Virus record (IMG/VR): IMGVR_UViG_3300035703_000451
Coordinates: 1-20,949 of that record
Source: a virus
DNA: 20,949 nt
Reading direction: 5' to 3' (one strand)
In this document: piece after piece, positions 10,885 through 16,957 of the stretch
How the letters are laid out: every line of letters begins with the position of its first letter
How positions within the stretch are numbered: position 1 is the first letter of the stretch
The notes under the pieces: model-generated
Seen by the model: only the letters and a program-made list of their open reading frames with translations
What the model was told of the DNA's origin: nothing
Database searches by the model: none
Made by a program: the position numbers and the translations under genes

Positions 10885-10913
10885 ATTATATCAAACAGAC
10901 TGATATGTGTCAA
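10885..10913 (-). promoter_or_regulatory. Perfect sigma70-type promoter for the clamp/loader operon
   Basis: TTGACA (10913-10908), a 17-base spacer and TATAAT (10890-10885) match the bacterial consensus at all twelve positions on the minus strand. The -35, the spacer and the ATPase gene's stop codon overlap: the promoter lies in the last codons of the CobS-like gene. It should start the DUF3310-45-170aa-44-...-regA transcript early in infection using the host polymerase. Confidence 0.9.
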
Positions 10914-12006
10914 TGGACTCTTCAGAAGGCATTTTAAAGTCAGCATCAACCTTGTCATACAGTTCCAGGAAGGACTGTTTGGTTTCATCATCAAAGCGAT
11001 TCACACACACTTGAATTGCCTTTGCCTTGTCTTGAAAAATGCTGTATGCACGGATAATGTGAGTCAGACGACGGGTGCTGATGATTTCCTCAATACCACC
11101 ATCATAGAAGGTCTTGCGGATGATGTCTGCCCAGTCCACCAGACGCTTGCAGAAGTCACGGTCTTCCACGCCAAGGTCCAGAGCAATGCCTTCCAGGATC
11201 TTCTGCTCAGTAGCAGGGGCAGGATAGGACTGCTCAAAGGTCACAGGGAAACGCTCAAGGAATGCCTCATTGAGCACGTTGGTGCCGATGAAACGACCAT
11301 CATCAGAACCCTTACCTTTGGTGTTAGCAGTGGCGATGACGTTGAATCCAGCAGCAGGTTTCACAAAGCTACCAATCTTCTTGAGGAACACACCCTTACC
11401 TTCCAGAATGGATTGAAGGCACAGAATCTTGTTAGAAGCAAGGTCAATCTCATCCAGCAGCAGCACAGCACCACGCTCAAGTGCTTCAACCACAGGACCA
11501 TTGTGCCAAACAGTTTCACCATTCACAAGACGAAAACCACCGATCAAATCATCTTCATCGGTTTCAATAGTAATGTTCACACGAATCATCTCACGTTTGA
11601 GTTGAGCACACGCTTGCTCCACCGAGAACGTTTTACCGTTACCCGACAGACCCGTGATAAACGCAGGGTAAAAGATACGGGACTGAATAATTTTTTTAAT
11701 ATCACCAAAGTTACCAAACTTGACGAAGGTATCATCTTTATCAGGAATGAGGTTTTGTTCCACGGCAGGGAGGGCAGCAGGAGCTTGATATGCTTGCTCC
11801 ATTTTATTTACAACAGTCGGGGTCACTTCCAGATTCCAACGACCACGAGCAGTCTTATAGTCTTCAAGGCGACGGGTCACAGTCTGGTAGTTCAGACCAC
11901 GAGAGGCGCAAAAACCTTTGAGGTCGCCAGAAGTAATTTCAGAACCATAGAGTTCTTTGATGCTTTCAATGAGTTGTTGATCGTTCACAGAAGACTTGCG
12001 AGGCAT
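10891..12006 (-). CDS. cobS: MoxR/CobS-type AAA+ ATPase
   Basis: CobS proteins are AAA+ subunits that with CobT form cobaltochelatase; cyanophage relatives are usually labelled CobS. The 371-aa protein has a small N-terminal domain (residues 1-60) that looks DNA-binding, with RGLNYQTVTRRLEDYK as a helix-turn-helix candidate. Walker A is TGLSGNGKT at about residues 118-126, Walker B is VLLLDEIDLAS near residue 182, sensor 1 is VIATANTKG near residue 226, and an AFLERFPVTFEQ segment is typical of MoxR-class ATPases. Its partner is probably the 716-aa HEVGH/VWA protein nearby. No other cobalamin gene is present, so a chelatase role is not shown. This gene is visibly GC-richer than its neighbours. 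The start is ATG 12006. Confidence 0.93.
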   Translation of the reverse strand: MPRKSSVNDQQLIESIKELYGSEITSGDLKGFCASRGLNYQTVTRRLEDYKTARGRWNLEVTPTVVNKMEQAYQAPAALPAVEQNLIPDKDDTFVKFGNFGDIKKIIQSRIFYPAFITGLSGNGKTFSVEQACAQLKREMIRVNITIETDEDDLIGGFRLVNGETVWHNGPVVEALERGAVLLLDEIDLASNKILCLQSILEGKGVFLKKIGSFVKPAAGFNVIATANTKGKGSDDGRFIGTNVLNEAFLERFPVTFEQSYPAPATEQKILEGIALDLGVEDRDFCKRLVDWADIIRKTFYDGGIEEIISTRRLTHIIRAYSIFQDKAKAIQVCVNRFDDETKQSFLELYDKVDADFKMPSEESIDTYQSV

Positions 12007-12095: not shown

Positions 12096-12329
12096 TCAGT
12101 CTTCGGGTCGGGTGTTTGCAACAGGTTTACCTGCCCTTCTTGCTGCTTTATTTCCTGCCCCCCTATCTCTATTTTTACCCTGAACATCTGCCCAGTAATC
12201 TTTATTACGTCTATTGCTTTCACCACCAACAGAGCGTTCTTCTGGAGGGGCACTTCTTCCACCACGCTTTCTCATAGATCCAAACTTAGGATCTAGTACT
12301 TCTAACATAAACTCTTTAAAAGTTTTCAT
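12096..12329 (-). CDS. Small basic protein with a T4-like capsid-targeting sequence, candidate internal head protein
   Basis: The 77-aa protein begins MKTFKEFMLEVLDPKFG. This closely resembles the N-terminal capsid-targeting sequence of T4 internal proteins (as I recall, MKTYQEFIAE in IPIII), which sends them into the prohead and is then cut off by the gp21 protease after Glu. Here the cut would fall after Glu10. The remainder is strongly basic (about 17 Lys/Arg against 9 Asp/Glu), low in hydrophobics and Gly/Arg-rich, as expected of a DNA-associated packaged protein. It lies behind a late-like promoter and a 47-aa gene and is closed by a terminator. No homologue was checked. It could also be a scaffold component. 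Confidence 0.75.
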   Translation of the reverse strand: MKTFKEFMLEVLDPKFGSMRKRGGRSAPPEERSVGGESNRRNKDYWADVQGKNRDRGAGNKAARRAGKPVANTRPED

Positions 12330-12330
12330 T

Positions 12331-12474
12331 TTAGTCTAAGGTAATTTTTTTACTCTTCGAAGCCTTGGTAATAGGAACTACCTTATCTTCAACTACTTCC
12401 TTTACAGGTGCTGGTGCTTGTGTCGGTTCGGAAACTGGTTGTGGTTGCCCAAACAAGTCAGTAAATCTACTCAT
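12331..12474 (-). CDS. Small Pro-rich 47-aa protein
   Basis: The ORF starts at ATG 12474 (MSRFTDLFGQPQPVSE) and ends KKITLD; its stop comes one base before the ATG of the 77-aa gene. The middle is rich in Pro, Ala, Val and Glu (EPTQAPAPVKEVVED), the end in Lys/Ser, so it is probably disordered with a short N-terminal helix. A late-like promoter box lies 25 bases upstream. This, and its partner with a capsid-targeting sequence, suggests a virion or assembly role. No family is recognised. No clear ribosome-binding site is visible. Confidence 0.65.
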   Translation of the reverse strand: MSRFTDLFGQPQPVSEPTQAPAPVKEVVEDKVVPITKASKSKKITLD

Positions 12475-12498: not shown

Positions 12499-12506
12499 TA
12501 TTTATC
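12499..12506 (-). promoter_or_regulatory. Late-like promoter GATAAATA before the 47/77-aa genes
   Basis: GATAAATA on the minus strand is one base off the T4 late consensus TATAAATA and lies 25 bases before the ATG at 12474. This is the same distance range as the two exact boxes upstream of the 544- and 184-aa genes. It overlaps the end of the 716-aa gene. Confidence 0.6.
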
Positions 12507-14655
12507 AAGCAACCAATTCTACAAACTCACCAAGAATTCTTTTGTTCATTTTCTTAGATTTAAGGCTCTTTACAAATGCAGATTTAATTTGTGCCTTAGA
12601 TGCACACTCAGCAACATCAAACTCAGTATCCTGGGAAAGGGCATTAGAAGAAAGACCGAAGTAAGAATGATATCCAGACTTTTTGATAGTGAATGCTTTC
12701 TCTTTCTTCCAAGCAGTCATTACTTTTTCATAATCAGGACCATAATATCCACAATAGCGTCGAATAAAGTTGCCAGCATCACGCCCTTCAAGAACACGAA
12801 TACCAATAAAGTTAATATCAGCGAACTTATCACGAAGATTGCGAAGAAGAACATCAGTAAACTGATGCCACTCTACATCACACGAATAAGTATTACCAGT
12901 CTTGCGGTCACGCAGGAAAGCATTAGGTCCAATGTGAGCAGTGCCCATAAAGGGACCATCTTCCCAGTGACGTTGAACCTCACGGTGATACTTGACCATG
13001 CAAGCTTCACCATCAGTCAGTACAACACACTGAACTTTCTGAAGTTTGTTCTCTTTTTGAAACTTAGGAAGAATTTGATGAAGAGAGATAAGTGCCTCAT
13101 TCAGAGGAGTTCCAGAAAGACTCAGACCAGTAGGAACTGGATAAGAACAGTGAGACCAACGACTAAATGAGGCAGCAAGACGGAAGATATTCTTCATCTG
13201 CTCATCCAGAGTCTTACCATTCACATTACTAGTAAGCAAATTCATCATTGAAAACCACTCACCAACTTGAACAAGACCATCTTTTTTCTTGTAGGCAAGT
13301 TCACGCAGGTTTACTTTACCGTGTTCATCATACGTTACCAAAGGATACTCAGAAGTGAAAGCATAAACCTCAAAAGGAATTGCAACTTTCTTGCAGAACC
13401 AAACAAGGTTGAAGAGTTGCTTGACAGTATCTAGCATGACATCACCCATCGAACCAGACCAGTCCAGAACAAATACTAGACCATGATTCTTACCATCAGC
13501 AAGAGTCGTTACCTTACGGAACAAGTCTTCATTGTATTTGTAAGTGTGCAGTTTGGTGCAGTCCAGAACTCCAGTGCGAGCAGTAGAAGCACGGGAGTAG
13601 GAATCTGCTGCCTTACGACACTCAAACTCCTTCACCAGATAGTTGACTTCTTTCTGGGCAGAACGCTTGAACTGATTGAACTGAGTATCAACTCCACCAA
13701 AGATAATCTCTTCAGCATATTCACGGTATTCCAACCAGTTGCTCCACTCATCCCGACAACGATTGTGAATCTCAGAGTTGGGGACAATGATTTTTTTCAG
13801 GTCAACTTGAGGAAGTTCCAGATAAACATTTTCATAACCATCACGATTCACCAGTTCTTTCAGTGCCTCTTCCAAAGAGTCCATCGTCTTGACTTCTGGT
13901 TCTTCATCTTTCTCACCACCAACAAGAGATTTATTAGGATGCTGTTGCTGAGAATTTTCACCAGAAGAAGCACCATCTGAACCATCAGACTCAGGTTGAT
14001 CATTCTCACCTTCTTGCTGGTCAGAGAAGTCAGAAGCAGGTTGCTGACTTGCACCAGAATCCTGAGATTGAAGGTTATCCAGTTGAACCTTAGTCTCTTC
14101 CTGTTGCTTCTGCTTACAATACTTGTAGAGTGCCTCTGCGGCAATCAAAACCTCAGAAAAGGTTTCAGATTCTGCAATCTGATTGATAATATCAGTCTCT
14201 TCTCCACGCTCAATCAGAATATCAGTAAAGTTACCGATCTTGAACCACAGGTTTGCACGGTCGGCAAGATTCATCTCATCAATCTTCTCATCGGCAATCT
14301 GAAAGAAATCATCATCAGCAAGTTCCTTGTAACCGTTGAAAAAGGTCTTAGCAAGACCAGGATAACGACGCTTCATCATCTTTTCAATACGAGCATCTTC
14401 CACGATATTGACGAACTGAGGAGGAACCCTGACCTTCTCAGTCCAGTCTTCATCGGGTGTATAAAGTGCGTGACCAACCTCGTGCCCCACCAGCAGGTCA
14501 TACACGGTATTGCTTGCCTTCTCCCACATCGGCAGGGTCAGCACACGAGTATGAACGTTGAACTGGGCAGTCTCTACCTTCTTGTGCTCAACCACAAGAT
14601 CTTCGGTGGCAAGCAGTTTAGCAAGTTGGGACTTGATTTCGTGGCGGACGGTCAT
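12505..14655 (-). CDS. cobT: HEVGH peptidase-like / CobT-like VWA-domain protein (716 aa)
   Basis: The N-terminus carries HEVGH at residues 58-62, a zinc-metalloprotease HExxH motif, followed near residue 83 by NIVEDARIEKMMKRRYPG, which may supply a third ligand. A long acidic, Ser/Gln/Glu/Asp-rich linker follows (about 200-265). The C-terminal half is a von Willebrand A domain with the MIDAS motif VLDWSGSMGD near residue 397, a LSLSGTPLNEAL segment, and VLTDGEA. This is the CobT/VWA style, where a metal-binding VWA protein works with a MoxR-type AAA+ ATPase; the ATPase lies two small genes downstream. The order acidic linker plus VWA fits CobT, but the HExxH domain suggests a peptidase or adaptor role. 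Start ATG 14655 (MTVRHEIKSQLAKL). The name cobT is tentative. Confidence 0.92.
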   Translation of the reverse strand: MTVRHEIKSQLAKLLATEDLVVEHKKVETAQFNVHTRVLTLPMWEKASNTVYDLLVGHEVGHALYTPDEDWTEKVRVPPQFVNIVEDARIEKMMKRRYPGLAKTFFNGYKELADDDFFQIADEKIDEMNLADRANLWFKIGNFTDILIERGEETDIINQIAESETFSEVLIAAEALYKYCKQKQQEETKVQLDNLQSQDSGASQQPASDFSDQQEGENDQPESDGSDGASSGENSQQQHPNKSLVGGEKDEEPEVKTMDSLEEALKELVNRDGYENVYLELPQVDLKKIIVPNSEIHNRCRDEWSNWLEYREYAEEIIFGGVDTQFNQFKRSAQKEVNYLVKEFECRKAADSYSRASTARTGVLDCTKLHTYKYNEDLFRKVTTLADGKNHGLVFVLDWSGSMGDVMLDTVKQLFNLVWFCKKVAIPFEVYAFTSEYPLVTYDEHGKVNLRELAYKKKDGLVQVGEWFSMMNLLTSNVNGKTLDEQMKNIFRLAASFSRWSHCSYPVPTGLSLSGTPLNEALISLHQILPKFQKENKLQKVQCVVLTDGEACMVKYHREVQRHWEDGPFMGTAHIGPNAFLRDRKTGNTYSCDVEWHQFTDVLLRNLRDKFADINFIGIRVLEGRDAGNFIRRYCGYYGPDYEKVMTAWKKEKAFTIKKSGYHSYFGLSSNALSQDTEFDVAECASKAQIKSAFVKSLKSKKMNKRILGEFVELVA

Positions 14656-14734: not shown

Positions 14735-15289
14735 TTATCTAATAGTGATATCTGGTTTTTTAAGTAGTTTGCCAGCAGCTCCACTAGTTGGTGGTTCTCC
14801 AATAACAGGTGCAGGAGATTTTTTACCGTCAATTCTATTTGATGGTTTTGACATCAGATTCTGCATTGCTGGACTCATCTCAACAATACTTTGCTTCCAC
14901 TCTTCACTCATATTTGCCATAATAGCAAGAGCTGCTTTGTTGGTATCAGCATAACCTTCTGCGACCAGGTATTCTAGCAGATAATCAAAGAGATCTATTT
15001 CTGGTTCAAAATGTGCTTTTTGAACGGTTGGTTTATTTTTCGCTTCAAGTTCATTACGACGACCAGCTGGATTATTCATTGCATTACGACGACGAATTTG
15101 TCTCATTGCTTCATCATCATCCCCCCTACCCATAGCACGTCTCTCAGTTTCATATGCTCTATTAGACTGTCTTTCAATTTTTTGTTTATTGGGAGATTTA
15201 TATCCTTCTTCTATTGAAGTTACAGTTTTGTCAACTTGGTGAATCTGTTTATATGCTTCCCAAAGTTCTTTAACTTCCTTATCTTTCAT
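14735..15289 (-). CDS. Late virion-like protein, short paralogue (184 aa)
   Basis: The protein begins MKDKEVKELWEAYKQIHQV, then a basic charged region (residues 30-80), the box KPTVQKAHFEPE at 86-97, the box FDYLLEYLVAEGYADTNKAA at 101-120 with IMANMSEEWKQSI at 123-135, and a Pro/Gly/Lys tail. The same three boxes in the same order occur in the 544-aa protein just upstream, so the two are paralogues. An exact TATAAATA late promoter lies 20 bases before the start and a strong terminator follows. I remember the EGYA...MSEEW box from other T4-like cyanophage structural or hypothetical proteins but cannot name a function. A virion or assembly role is inferred from late expression. Confidence 0.88.
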   Translation of the reverse strand: MKDKEVKELWEAYKQIHQVDKTVTSIEEGYKSPNKQKIERQSNRAYETERRAMGRGDDDEAMRQIRRRNAMNNPAGRRNELEAKNKPTVQKAHFEPEIDLFDYLLEYLVAEGYADTNKAALAIMANMSEEWKQSIVEMSPAMQNLMSKPSNRIDGKKSPAPVIGEPPTSGAAGKLLKKPDITIR

Positions 15290-15322: not shown

Positions 15323-16957
15323 TTACTTTACCTTAGTTGTATACTTTTTACTGTTCCATGTAAATTCTTTTTGCCCAGAAGTTCTAGCTGCCTTAAAAGC
15401 TTTATCGAAAGATTGTGCTTTAGTTAGTCCTTGATCAGGATTTTTTGGACCTTGTTGTGGTTTGTAATCACCTCTTCTTAGAGCTGCTTTGAGAGTGCTA
15501 TCTCCTGTATTATAAGATTGCAGTCCAGCAGCGGCCGCTGCAATATGAGGACTACGTGTAGGAAGAGACACTCCAGGATTTCTAGTCTGGGTGTTAGATC
15601 TGACAGATCTCATCAAATTTTGCTGCCCAGTAGCATTAGGTCTTGGTGGGGTTCCAATTTTAAAAGTTTGTTTTTGTGGTTGGGGTTTAGAAGATCCTTG
15701 AGTTGCAATTTTATTCAAATTTACAGGACCACTAGGTGGTTTTTGTGGCATTTTATCAATACCGGTCATCATTCTAAACATTTTAGCGGCATTGCTAATA
15801 TTTTTACCTACGTCTTGTAAGGCATTTTCAGAAAGAATTTGTTCTGTAATACTTCCCCTCCAATCTTCACTCATGTTTGACATAATAATAAATGCAGATC
15901 TATCATTATTAGCATATCCTTCATCGATTAAATATCCAACAATATATTCATCACTCAATCCTTTTCTAGCAAGATGACCAGCTAGTCTACCAGTATTATA
16001 AACTCCTTTAACAACTTCACCACCAACTTTTCCAACACCTTTTGCTGCTTTGCCAATTACTTTACCAGTTTCCTTTGCAGCGTCCATAGCAGCATTATGT
16101 CTTTCAAGTCCTCTGTTTACAACACCAGCAAGACGGTCTAATGTTGTTGGTTTTCTAGGTTGTTTCTTAGCGGCAGAGGCAACAGCAGATTGTCTTTGGA
16201 GAGATGCTTTCAAACCTGATGGTTTTGATTTTGATGCTTCGTTTTCTGCTGCTTTTCTTTCTGTCTTTTGAGCACGAAGTTCTTCTATTCTTTTTTCTGG
16301 AGGTTTTCCTGGCGATTTCTTTGTTCCTTTGTATGGTTTACCTGTTTTACTTACTGGTTCAACTTTTACTTTTGTTCCACCAGAACCTCTCCTTGCTTCA
16401 GTTAAAATATATTCTTCAGCAATATCATAAACAAAATTAGCAAACTCCTCTAAACCAAGTTCTTCGATAAGAATATCAACTCCATCCTCATTAAGACCCA
16501 TTTCATAAAAATATTGAGCAGCAATTTCTACTTCTTCTTTCTTAATTGTCCCACCCTTATTAAATCCAGGAACTCTTCCTCTCAAAGGTTGTGTTGCTCT
16601 ATCATACATTTGTCCTCCTGTTCGTCTACCAAGAACATTACCAACAATTGCTCCACCAGGAATTCCAGTTCTTTGACCTTGAGTTCTACCAACTACGCCA
16701 CCAACAGTTTTTGCCGCACTTCTTCCTAAATTATCCAATGCCGAAATAGGATTTTCGCTTAATTGCTCACCCTCTGCCTCATAATGTGCATTTTGTAATG
16801 TTGGTTTTTTAGGTTCAATAACTTTACCACCACCATGAGGTTTAGTTAATGGTTCTAAAACGTCTCTAGCAGTTTTTCCTGGTGGAATAGGAACTCCAAT
16901 TTGTTCATAAACTTGATTATATGCTTCCCAAATATTTTTTAATTCCTTTGAATTCAT
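15323..16957 (-). CDS. Late virion-like protein, long paralogue with terminal tag (544 aa)
   Basis: The protein begins MNSKELKNIWEAYNQVYEQ, followed by KPTLQNAHYEAEGEQL (51-66), a Gly-rich segment (80-118), an acidic helical unit IAAQYFYEMGLNEDGVDILI at 145-164 ending near LTEARRG (186-191), a long basic region, Gly/Ala/Lys helices at 285-335, and the box IVGYLIDEGYANNDRSA with NMSEDWRGSI at 339-370. The C-terminus, FDKAFKAARTSGQKEFTW then SKKYTTKVK, looks like a tag seen at the ends of many phage structural proteins. LTE|A at 187 and IDE|G at 346 resemble T4 gp21 prohead-protease cut sites. An exact late promoter precedes it. Virion or internal head protein is the best guess; no enzyme domain is visible. 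Confidence 0.88.
   Translation of the reverse strand: MNSKELKNIWEAYNQVYEQIGVPIPPGKTARDVLEPLTKPHGGGKVIEPKKPTLQNAHYEAEGEQLSENPISALDNLGRSAAKTVGGVVGRTQGQRTGIPGGAIVGNVLGRRTGGQMYDRATQPLRGRVPGFNKGGTIKKEEVEIAAQYFYEMGLNEDGVDILIEELGLEEFANFVYDIAEEYILTEARRGSGGTKVKVEPVSKTGKPYKGTKKSPGKPPEKRIEELRAQKTERKAAENEASKSKPSGLKASLQRQSAVASAAKKQPRKPTTLDRLAGVVNRGLERHNAAMDAAKETGKVIGKAAKGVGKVGGEVVKGVYNTGRLAGHLARKGLSDEYIVGYLIDEGYANNDRSAFIIMSNMSEDWRGSITEQILSENALQDVGKNISNAAKMFRMMTGIDKMPQKPPSGPVNLNKIATQGSSKPQPQKQTFKIGTPPRPNATGQQNLMRSVRSNTQTRNPGVSLPTRSPHIAAAAAGLQSYNTGDSTLKAALRRGDYKPQQGPKNPDQGLTKAQSFDKAFKAARTSGQKEFTWNSKKYTTKVK

Follow-up and report, generated by a model that had tools for sequence, protein, structure and literature searches.

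The 77-aa product of a small gene in a T4-like cyanophage is probably the precursor of a small, basic internal head protein, whose body is a cassette carried behind a constant capsid-targeting sequence (CTS). The gene lies in a 20,949-base IMG/VR virus record, hereafter the window, to which, among cultured phages, S-SRM01 and S-SM2 (Kyanoviridae) are most closely related. Its full product is MKTFKEFMLEVLDPKFGSMRKRGGRSAPPEERSVGGESNRRNKDYWADVQGKNRDRGAGNKAARRAGKPVANTRPED, with the N-terminal start MKTFKEFMLEVLDPKFGSMRKRGGRSAPPEERS, and the features concerned are collected in Table 1. T4-type CTS head targeting of this protein is well supported, because identity with T4 internal protein I (IPI), a late-promoter motif, the presence of a different body behind the CTS in a close relative and the enrichment of tagged N-termini among S-CREM2 proteins detected by mass spectrometry (MS) all point to it.

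Table 1. Features of the window (a slash in a residue string marks a known or predicted cut).
Feature	Position	Strand	Remark
CobS-like MoxR AAA+ ATPase (phrog_249)	10891..12006	-	downstream wall of the variable slot
77-aa CDS, CTS plus basic KRGG body	12096..12329	-	candidate internal head protein
KRGG body module, residues 11-65, about 55 aa	12135..12299	-	common to multi-module proteins of other uncultured phages
Predicted prohead-protease cut E10/V11	12299..12300	-	slightly off the strict T4 site pattern
CTS MKTFKEFMLE, residues 1-10	12300..12329	-	codons 1-8 DNA-identical to L121
47-aa ORF MSRFTDLF...	12331..12474	-	directly upstream of the CTS ORF; same place in L121
T4-like late-promoter motif GATAAATA	12499..12506	-	25 nt upstream of the 47-aa ORF; kept in L121
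CobT/vWA-like 'peptidase' (phrog_459)	12505..14655	-	upstream neighbour; other slot wall
184-aa protein, LWE/AY N-terminus, EGYADT...SEEW module	14735..15289	-	late motif 20 nt upstream
544-aa modular protein, IWE/AYNQVY N-terminus	15323..16957	-	late motif 24 nt upstream

An earlier note on this DNA had placed the N-terminus close to the targeting peptide of the T4 internal proteins, MKTYQEFIAE, and the T4 genome bears this out. Both ipII and ipIII begin MKTYQEFIAE/A, and ipI, which reads MKTFKEFTSTTTPVSTITE/A, starts with MKTFKEF and is identical to the window CTS over residues 1–7 (7/7). Positions 4 and 7 of the T4 CTS matter for targeting, and positions 8 and 10 for processing (PMC9026906); Phe4, Phe7 and Glu10 of the window occupy such critical positions, and the sequence carries the combination of an aromatic residue at 4, Phe at 7, a hydrophobic residue at 8 and Glu at 10. 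This T4 likeness is not due to chance. A regular expression for the CTS matched once in the window, whereas 200 Markov shuffles gave 0 matches on average, and in S-CREM2 it matched 5/219 N-termini versus 0/787 internal methionines. A further T4 protein, gp61.1 (54 aa; gene 61.1, NC_000866 18966-19130), begins MKTFKEFIKE/D and, by its sequence, looks like another CTS-bearing member of the T4 proteome.

The cassette nature of the body is seen by comparing the window with a closely related phage contig, L121, in which the 1,500 nt upstream are 88% identical and the 934 nt downstream (cobS) 84%. L121 shares the late-promoter motif, the 47-aa ORF and an identical stretch of 24 nt, ATGAAAACTTTTAAAGAGTTTATG, which encodes the MKTFKEFM start, and DNA homology stops at the 24th base, that is, at codon 8 of the CTS ORF. 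Behind these constant 24 nt stands the KRGG body in the window and an unrelated 'TMKDF' body in L121. The best explanation is that recombination between phages exchanges the body as a cassette, while the CTS in front of it stays constant as an anchor. In cultured relatives, the gene slot between the cobS-like and cobT-like walls is filled by other genes.

The 47-aa ORF and the CTS ORF meet at the junction TAA A ATG, and the two genes would be transcribed late, as one two-gene unit, to judge from the conserved motif ahead of them. T4-like late motifs are enriched upstream of S-CREM2 virion genes; ATAAATA is not enriched across the window (6 occurrences vs 7.1 expected), and the case for a late promoter is built on where the motif stands and on its being kept in L121. 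An ordinary, non-virion host-takeover protein, its N-terminal likeness coincidental, would be expected neither to keep such a motif nor to show a swap at the CTS boundary, and the chance expectation of the CTS motif is near zero; this reading, which has nothing of its own to recommend it beyond the fact that small phage ORFs amid replication genes often encode such proteins, is improbable in the extreme.

The earlier note had also proposed looking in other cyanophage genomes for MKTFKEF starts with variable bodies, and a survey of IMG/VR was strongly positive. An exact DNA pattern for MKTFKEFM was searched, with the permuted MKFTEKFM as control, the shorter form being adopted because a strict MKTFKEFMLE pattern found nothing in IMG/VR besides the window. 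The pattern occurs in 76 contigs, the permuted control in 0, and the matches give 54 distinct proteins, window included. In 52/54 the ATG lies at most 25 codons from the start of the open frame, and in 51/54 [LIVM]xE directly follows the constant part, while the bodies form 21 clusters with no similarity at E 1e-4. They include an S-adenosylmethionine (SAM) lyase (PF23780, 7.5e-17), a GNAT acetyltransferase (6e-6) and a weak, PARP-like match (0.001) below the cut-off. The CTS proteins concerned in the latter two cases, in L103 (9876-10286, minus strand; GNAT body) and L134 (6771-7490, minus strand; weak PARP-like body), are candidate injected enzymes.

Virions of cultured cyanophages carry proteins with the same kind of start. 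Among the S-CREM2 proteins, 52 of which were detected in virions by MS (PMC10665884), the expression M[KRQ].[FYL]..F[ILMVF].E marks a SAM hydrolase (MKDFDSFLEE), gp13 (MKDLHSFLTE), a kinase (VKRFDAFLTE, GTG start), gp136 (MQTFSMFFSE) and a cytidylyltransferase (MKNFSSFLTE). All five are MS-detected (5/5, vs 52/219 overall; Fisher p=6e-4), the expression having been picked after some S-CREM2 N-termini had been seen, and a stricter, T4-derived expression gives 4/4 (p=0.003). The first expression, fixed thereafter and applied to S-SCSM1, matches two proteins: NMNAT, which is a virion protein, and ORF30, which is not marked as one (1/2). The cytidylyltransferase family has also been reported in S-SM1 virions (PMC3037559), so that this CTS-bearing cytidylyltransferase/NMNAT family is a reported virion protein in S-SM1 and S-SCSM1; its S-SM2 member is matched over at least 80% of its length in 382 phage records. 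The authors of the S-CREM2 (PMC10665884) and S-SCSM1 studies could not tell packaging of the enzymes from carry-over or contamination. Some of the multi-module proteins related to the window protein are likewise known merely as virion-associated, with no location given, which would leave room for a component of the neck or tail that uses the MKTF start as a docking helix for another structure; since T4 itself uses this motif to direct proteins to its head, and since the S-CREM2 tag sits on enzymes and hypothetical proteins and never on tail proteins, such a role is highly improbable.

Two other MS-detected proteins carry related stretches away from the N-terminus. S-SCSM1 ORF93 (MK867354 91626-91835), of 69 aa, has a C-terminal CTS-like stretch, ...KKRTFKEFLEYIE, and S-CREM2 gp12 (OR473000 7704-10313), annotated as Cas9-like, has RFASFMAE/A about 18–25 residues from its start, which may mean an offset tag or a wrongly assigned start codon.

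Removal of the CTS by cleavage after Glu10 is likely but not certain. In T4 the propeptides of ipI-III and gp23 end at [LI]xE[AGS], which also fits eight sites in gp22, and nine such sites occur in the gp22 of S-CREM2, so the specificity of the prohead protease seems conserved in the cyanophage. Peptidase_S77 (gp21) was found in 7/8 related genomes, the window itself being a 21-kb fragment. In S-SM2, SSM2_108 reads MKTLKQFLKE/TPTNSVGNGGYTSAGGQTVAGYD and gp23 reads MIAE/QPTNAVGNGGYTSSGGQTVAGFD; the CTS of the former is thus joined to a segment that matches the mature N-arm of gp23, at the point where the gp23 propeptide should end, a position itself placed by comparison with T4. Cut sites are modestly enriched in MS-selected proteins (13 vs 8.0 and 7 vs 3.3 expected, each with p about 0.05); a first, stronger statistic (42 vs 15) was obtained on proteins chosen by hand, which have modules in common, and is partly circular and redundant.

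The window site, MLE/V, differs from the strict T4 pattern [LI]xE/[AGS] at P3 (Met) and P1' (Val), and because it departs from that pattern twice, processing may be inefficient or absent. The protein could then be targeted by its CTS and remain uncut, the whole 77-aa chain serving as a core or DNA-neutralising packaging component and not as a host-directed effector. In T4, Asp at position 10 stops processing while still allowing targeting (PMC9026906), and a basic, disordered body without an enzymatic signature would suit such a role, yet the relatives retain Glu, often in T4-fitting sites (IAE/G, LAE/A, LKE/A), the closest homologue, L006, having MLE/A, and enzymes swap freely with the body behind the CTS, as cargo would. 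We consider an uncut packaging component unlikely and retain the cleaved internal head protein as the preferred reading.

Copies of the KRGG body are under purifying selection (mean pN 0.094, pS 0.375; 13 distinct coding copies), so the 77-aa ORF is real. The remainder behind the CTS had been described as small, basic and poor in hydrophobic residues, in agreement with a predicted mature product of 67 aa with pI 10.9, net charge +8 and 13% VILMFWYC; the T4 internal proteins have pI 9.0–9.7. The module is strongly conserved and is present at 21 loci in IMG/VR, on virus contigs only. No relatives were confirmed among 84,980 bacterial and archaeal genomes, and hence no cellular origin was found for it.

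The contexts of the module form a mosaic: it stands after MKTFQEFMLE, after LxEAYNQVYxELDE, after ...EEWRESIVE and inside long proteins, and the residue that precedes it is Glu in every context, L014 included. Some of the long proteins begin MRTYQEFVSE, and one ends in a SAM-lyase domain. Such starts, nearer to T4 IPII/III than the window tag is, are combined with TMKDF and KRGG modules in L016 (2970-4292), whose C-terminus is the SAM-lyase domain, and in L026, L020 and L025. Proteins that carry the KRGG module have matches, in their other parts, to S-CREM2 gp6, gp137 and gp160, each of them detected by MS (BLAST against all 219 CDS), and to S-SCSM1 29, 89 and 92 (BLAST against virion-tagged S-SCSM1 proteins only).

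The 77-aa ORF has no tblastn match in cultured phages even at E=10, none in Pfam, PHROGs or PADLOC, and a chance match only in the PDB; these four resources show neither an enzymatic or anti-defence signature in the KRGG body nor kinship to a known inhibitor or enzyme. Structure prediction of the CTS protein is of low confidence (pLDDT 59) and mostly disordered, so no effector activity is readable from the predicted fold. Of the earlier proposal of a T4-like internal head protein acting against host defences, the head targeting is well supported, by IPI identity, late motif, L121 swap and S-CREM2 MS; an anti-defence role of the KRGG body is no more than a possibility. The plainest guess is a DNA-bound basic peptide, a host-directed effector being possible.

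The adjoining pair, described in the earlier note as protease/AAA+, turned out to be CobT/CobS-like, the phrog_459 'peptidase' not being a prohead protease; processing of the CTS protein by this pair was dropped for that reason, and the pair is apparently unrelated to head maturation. Beyond it lie the genes for the 184-aa and 544-aa proteins, both missing from L121. The EGYADT...SEEW module of the former matches the virion protein SSCSM1_89, and all three proteins have LxE/AY-like N-termini, perhaps another type of address for the head. The 'EGYADTNKAALAIMANMSEEW' module is also present in the cyanophage relatives L001 and L003.

For the 77-aa protein itself, we infer the following course. 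Once expressed late, it would dock to the prohead core through MKTFKEFMLE, as in T4 and in keeping with the MS detection of cyanophage CTS proteins, and a gp21-type protease would then most likely cleave past Glu10. The resulting 67-aa, largely unfolded KRGG peptide would stay with the packaged DNA and, following T4, be ejected together with it. The same module is also carried in longer multi-module proteins of virion type, directly behind Glu.

More tentatively, and with the odds somewhat against it, T4-like cyanophages may possess a mix-and-match injection system, in which a constant CTS or LxE/AYxxVY acts as recombination anchor and head address, enzymes and basic modules are interchangeable behind it, and the precursor is diced in the head and its peptides co-injected. 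If so, the cargo would comprise SAM lyase, GNAT, kinase, NMNAT, possibly an ADP-ribosyltransferase, and small basic modules, and prohead-protease sites between strung modules would allow one precursor to yield several peptides. A shared T4-type head address would account for the packaging of enzymes in cyanophage virions, would allow injected cargo that is now hidden to be predicted from the sequences of T4-like cyanophages, and would show where they keep their first-strike proteins.

Among known systems, the ejection proteins of phiKZ and SPN3US are alike in being packaged in the head and in having N-terminal propeptides cut after Glu, with several sites per protein (PMC5694885); these propeptides are, however, mostly longer than 100 residues and unrelated in sequence, and are cut at AxE (SPN3US) or SxE (phiKZ), not [LI]xE. 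T4 Alt is a head-packaged enzyme injected with the DNA, with a propeptide removed by gp21, and the CTS protein of L134 is weakly PARP-like; the sequence of Alt is unrelated to the KRGG body. The SAM hydrolase, APH/ChoK-like kinase and cytidylyltransferase of S-CREM2 and the NMNAT of S-SCSM1 share the CTS-type N-terminus, MS detection in virions and, in most of them, the late motif; they differ in having larger, enzymatic bodies, and the papers leave the route, or the fact, of their encapsidation undecided. T4 IPI, IPII and IPIII are alike in their N-terminal CTS, in their small, basic and variable bodies and in a gp21-type protease, here found in related genomes. As a review of the T4 head states, the internal proteins of T-even phages are diverse and the CTS alone is conserved (PMC3012670), so the principle of a constant CTS with diverse bodies was already known; for cyanophages, no earlier report of a CTS was found in the open-access literature, to which the search was confined. 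Unlike in T4, the KRGG body is unrelated to any internal protein, it is in relatives of the window also one module within long multi-module proteins, and the swap takes place between cobS and a cobT-like gene, not at the T4 ip loci. Three points extend beyond T4: the cassette swap, seen at DNA level, lies at a new locus, the KRGG module is reused in multi-module proteins of virion type, and there is a link to the virion enzymes of cultured cyanophages.
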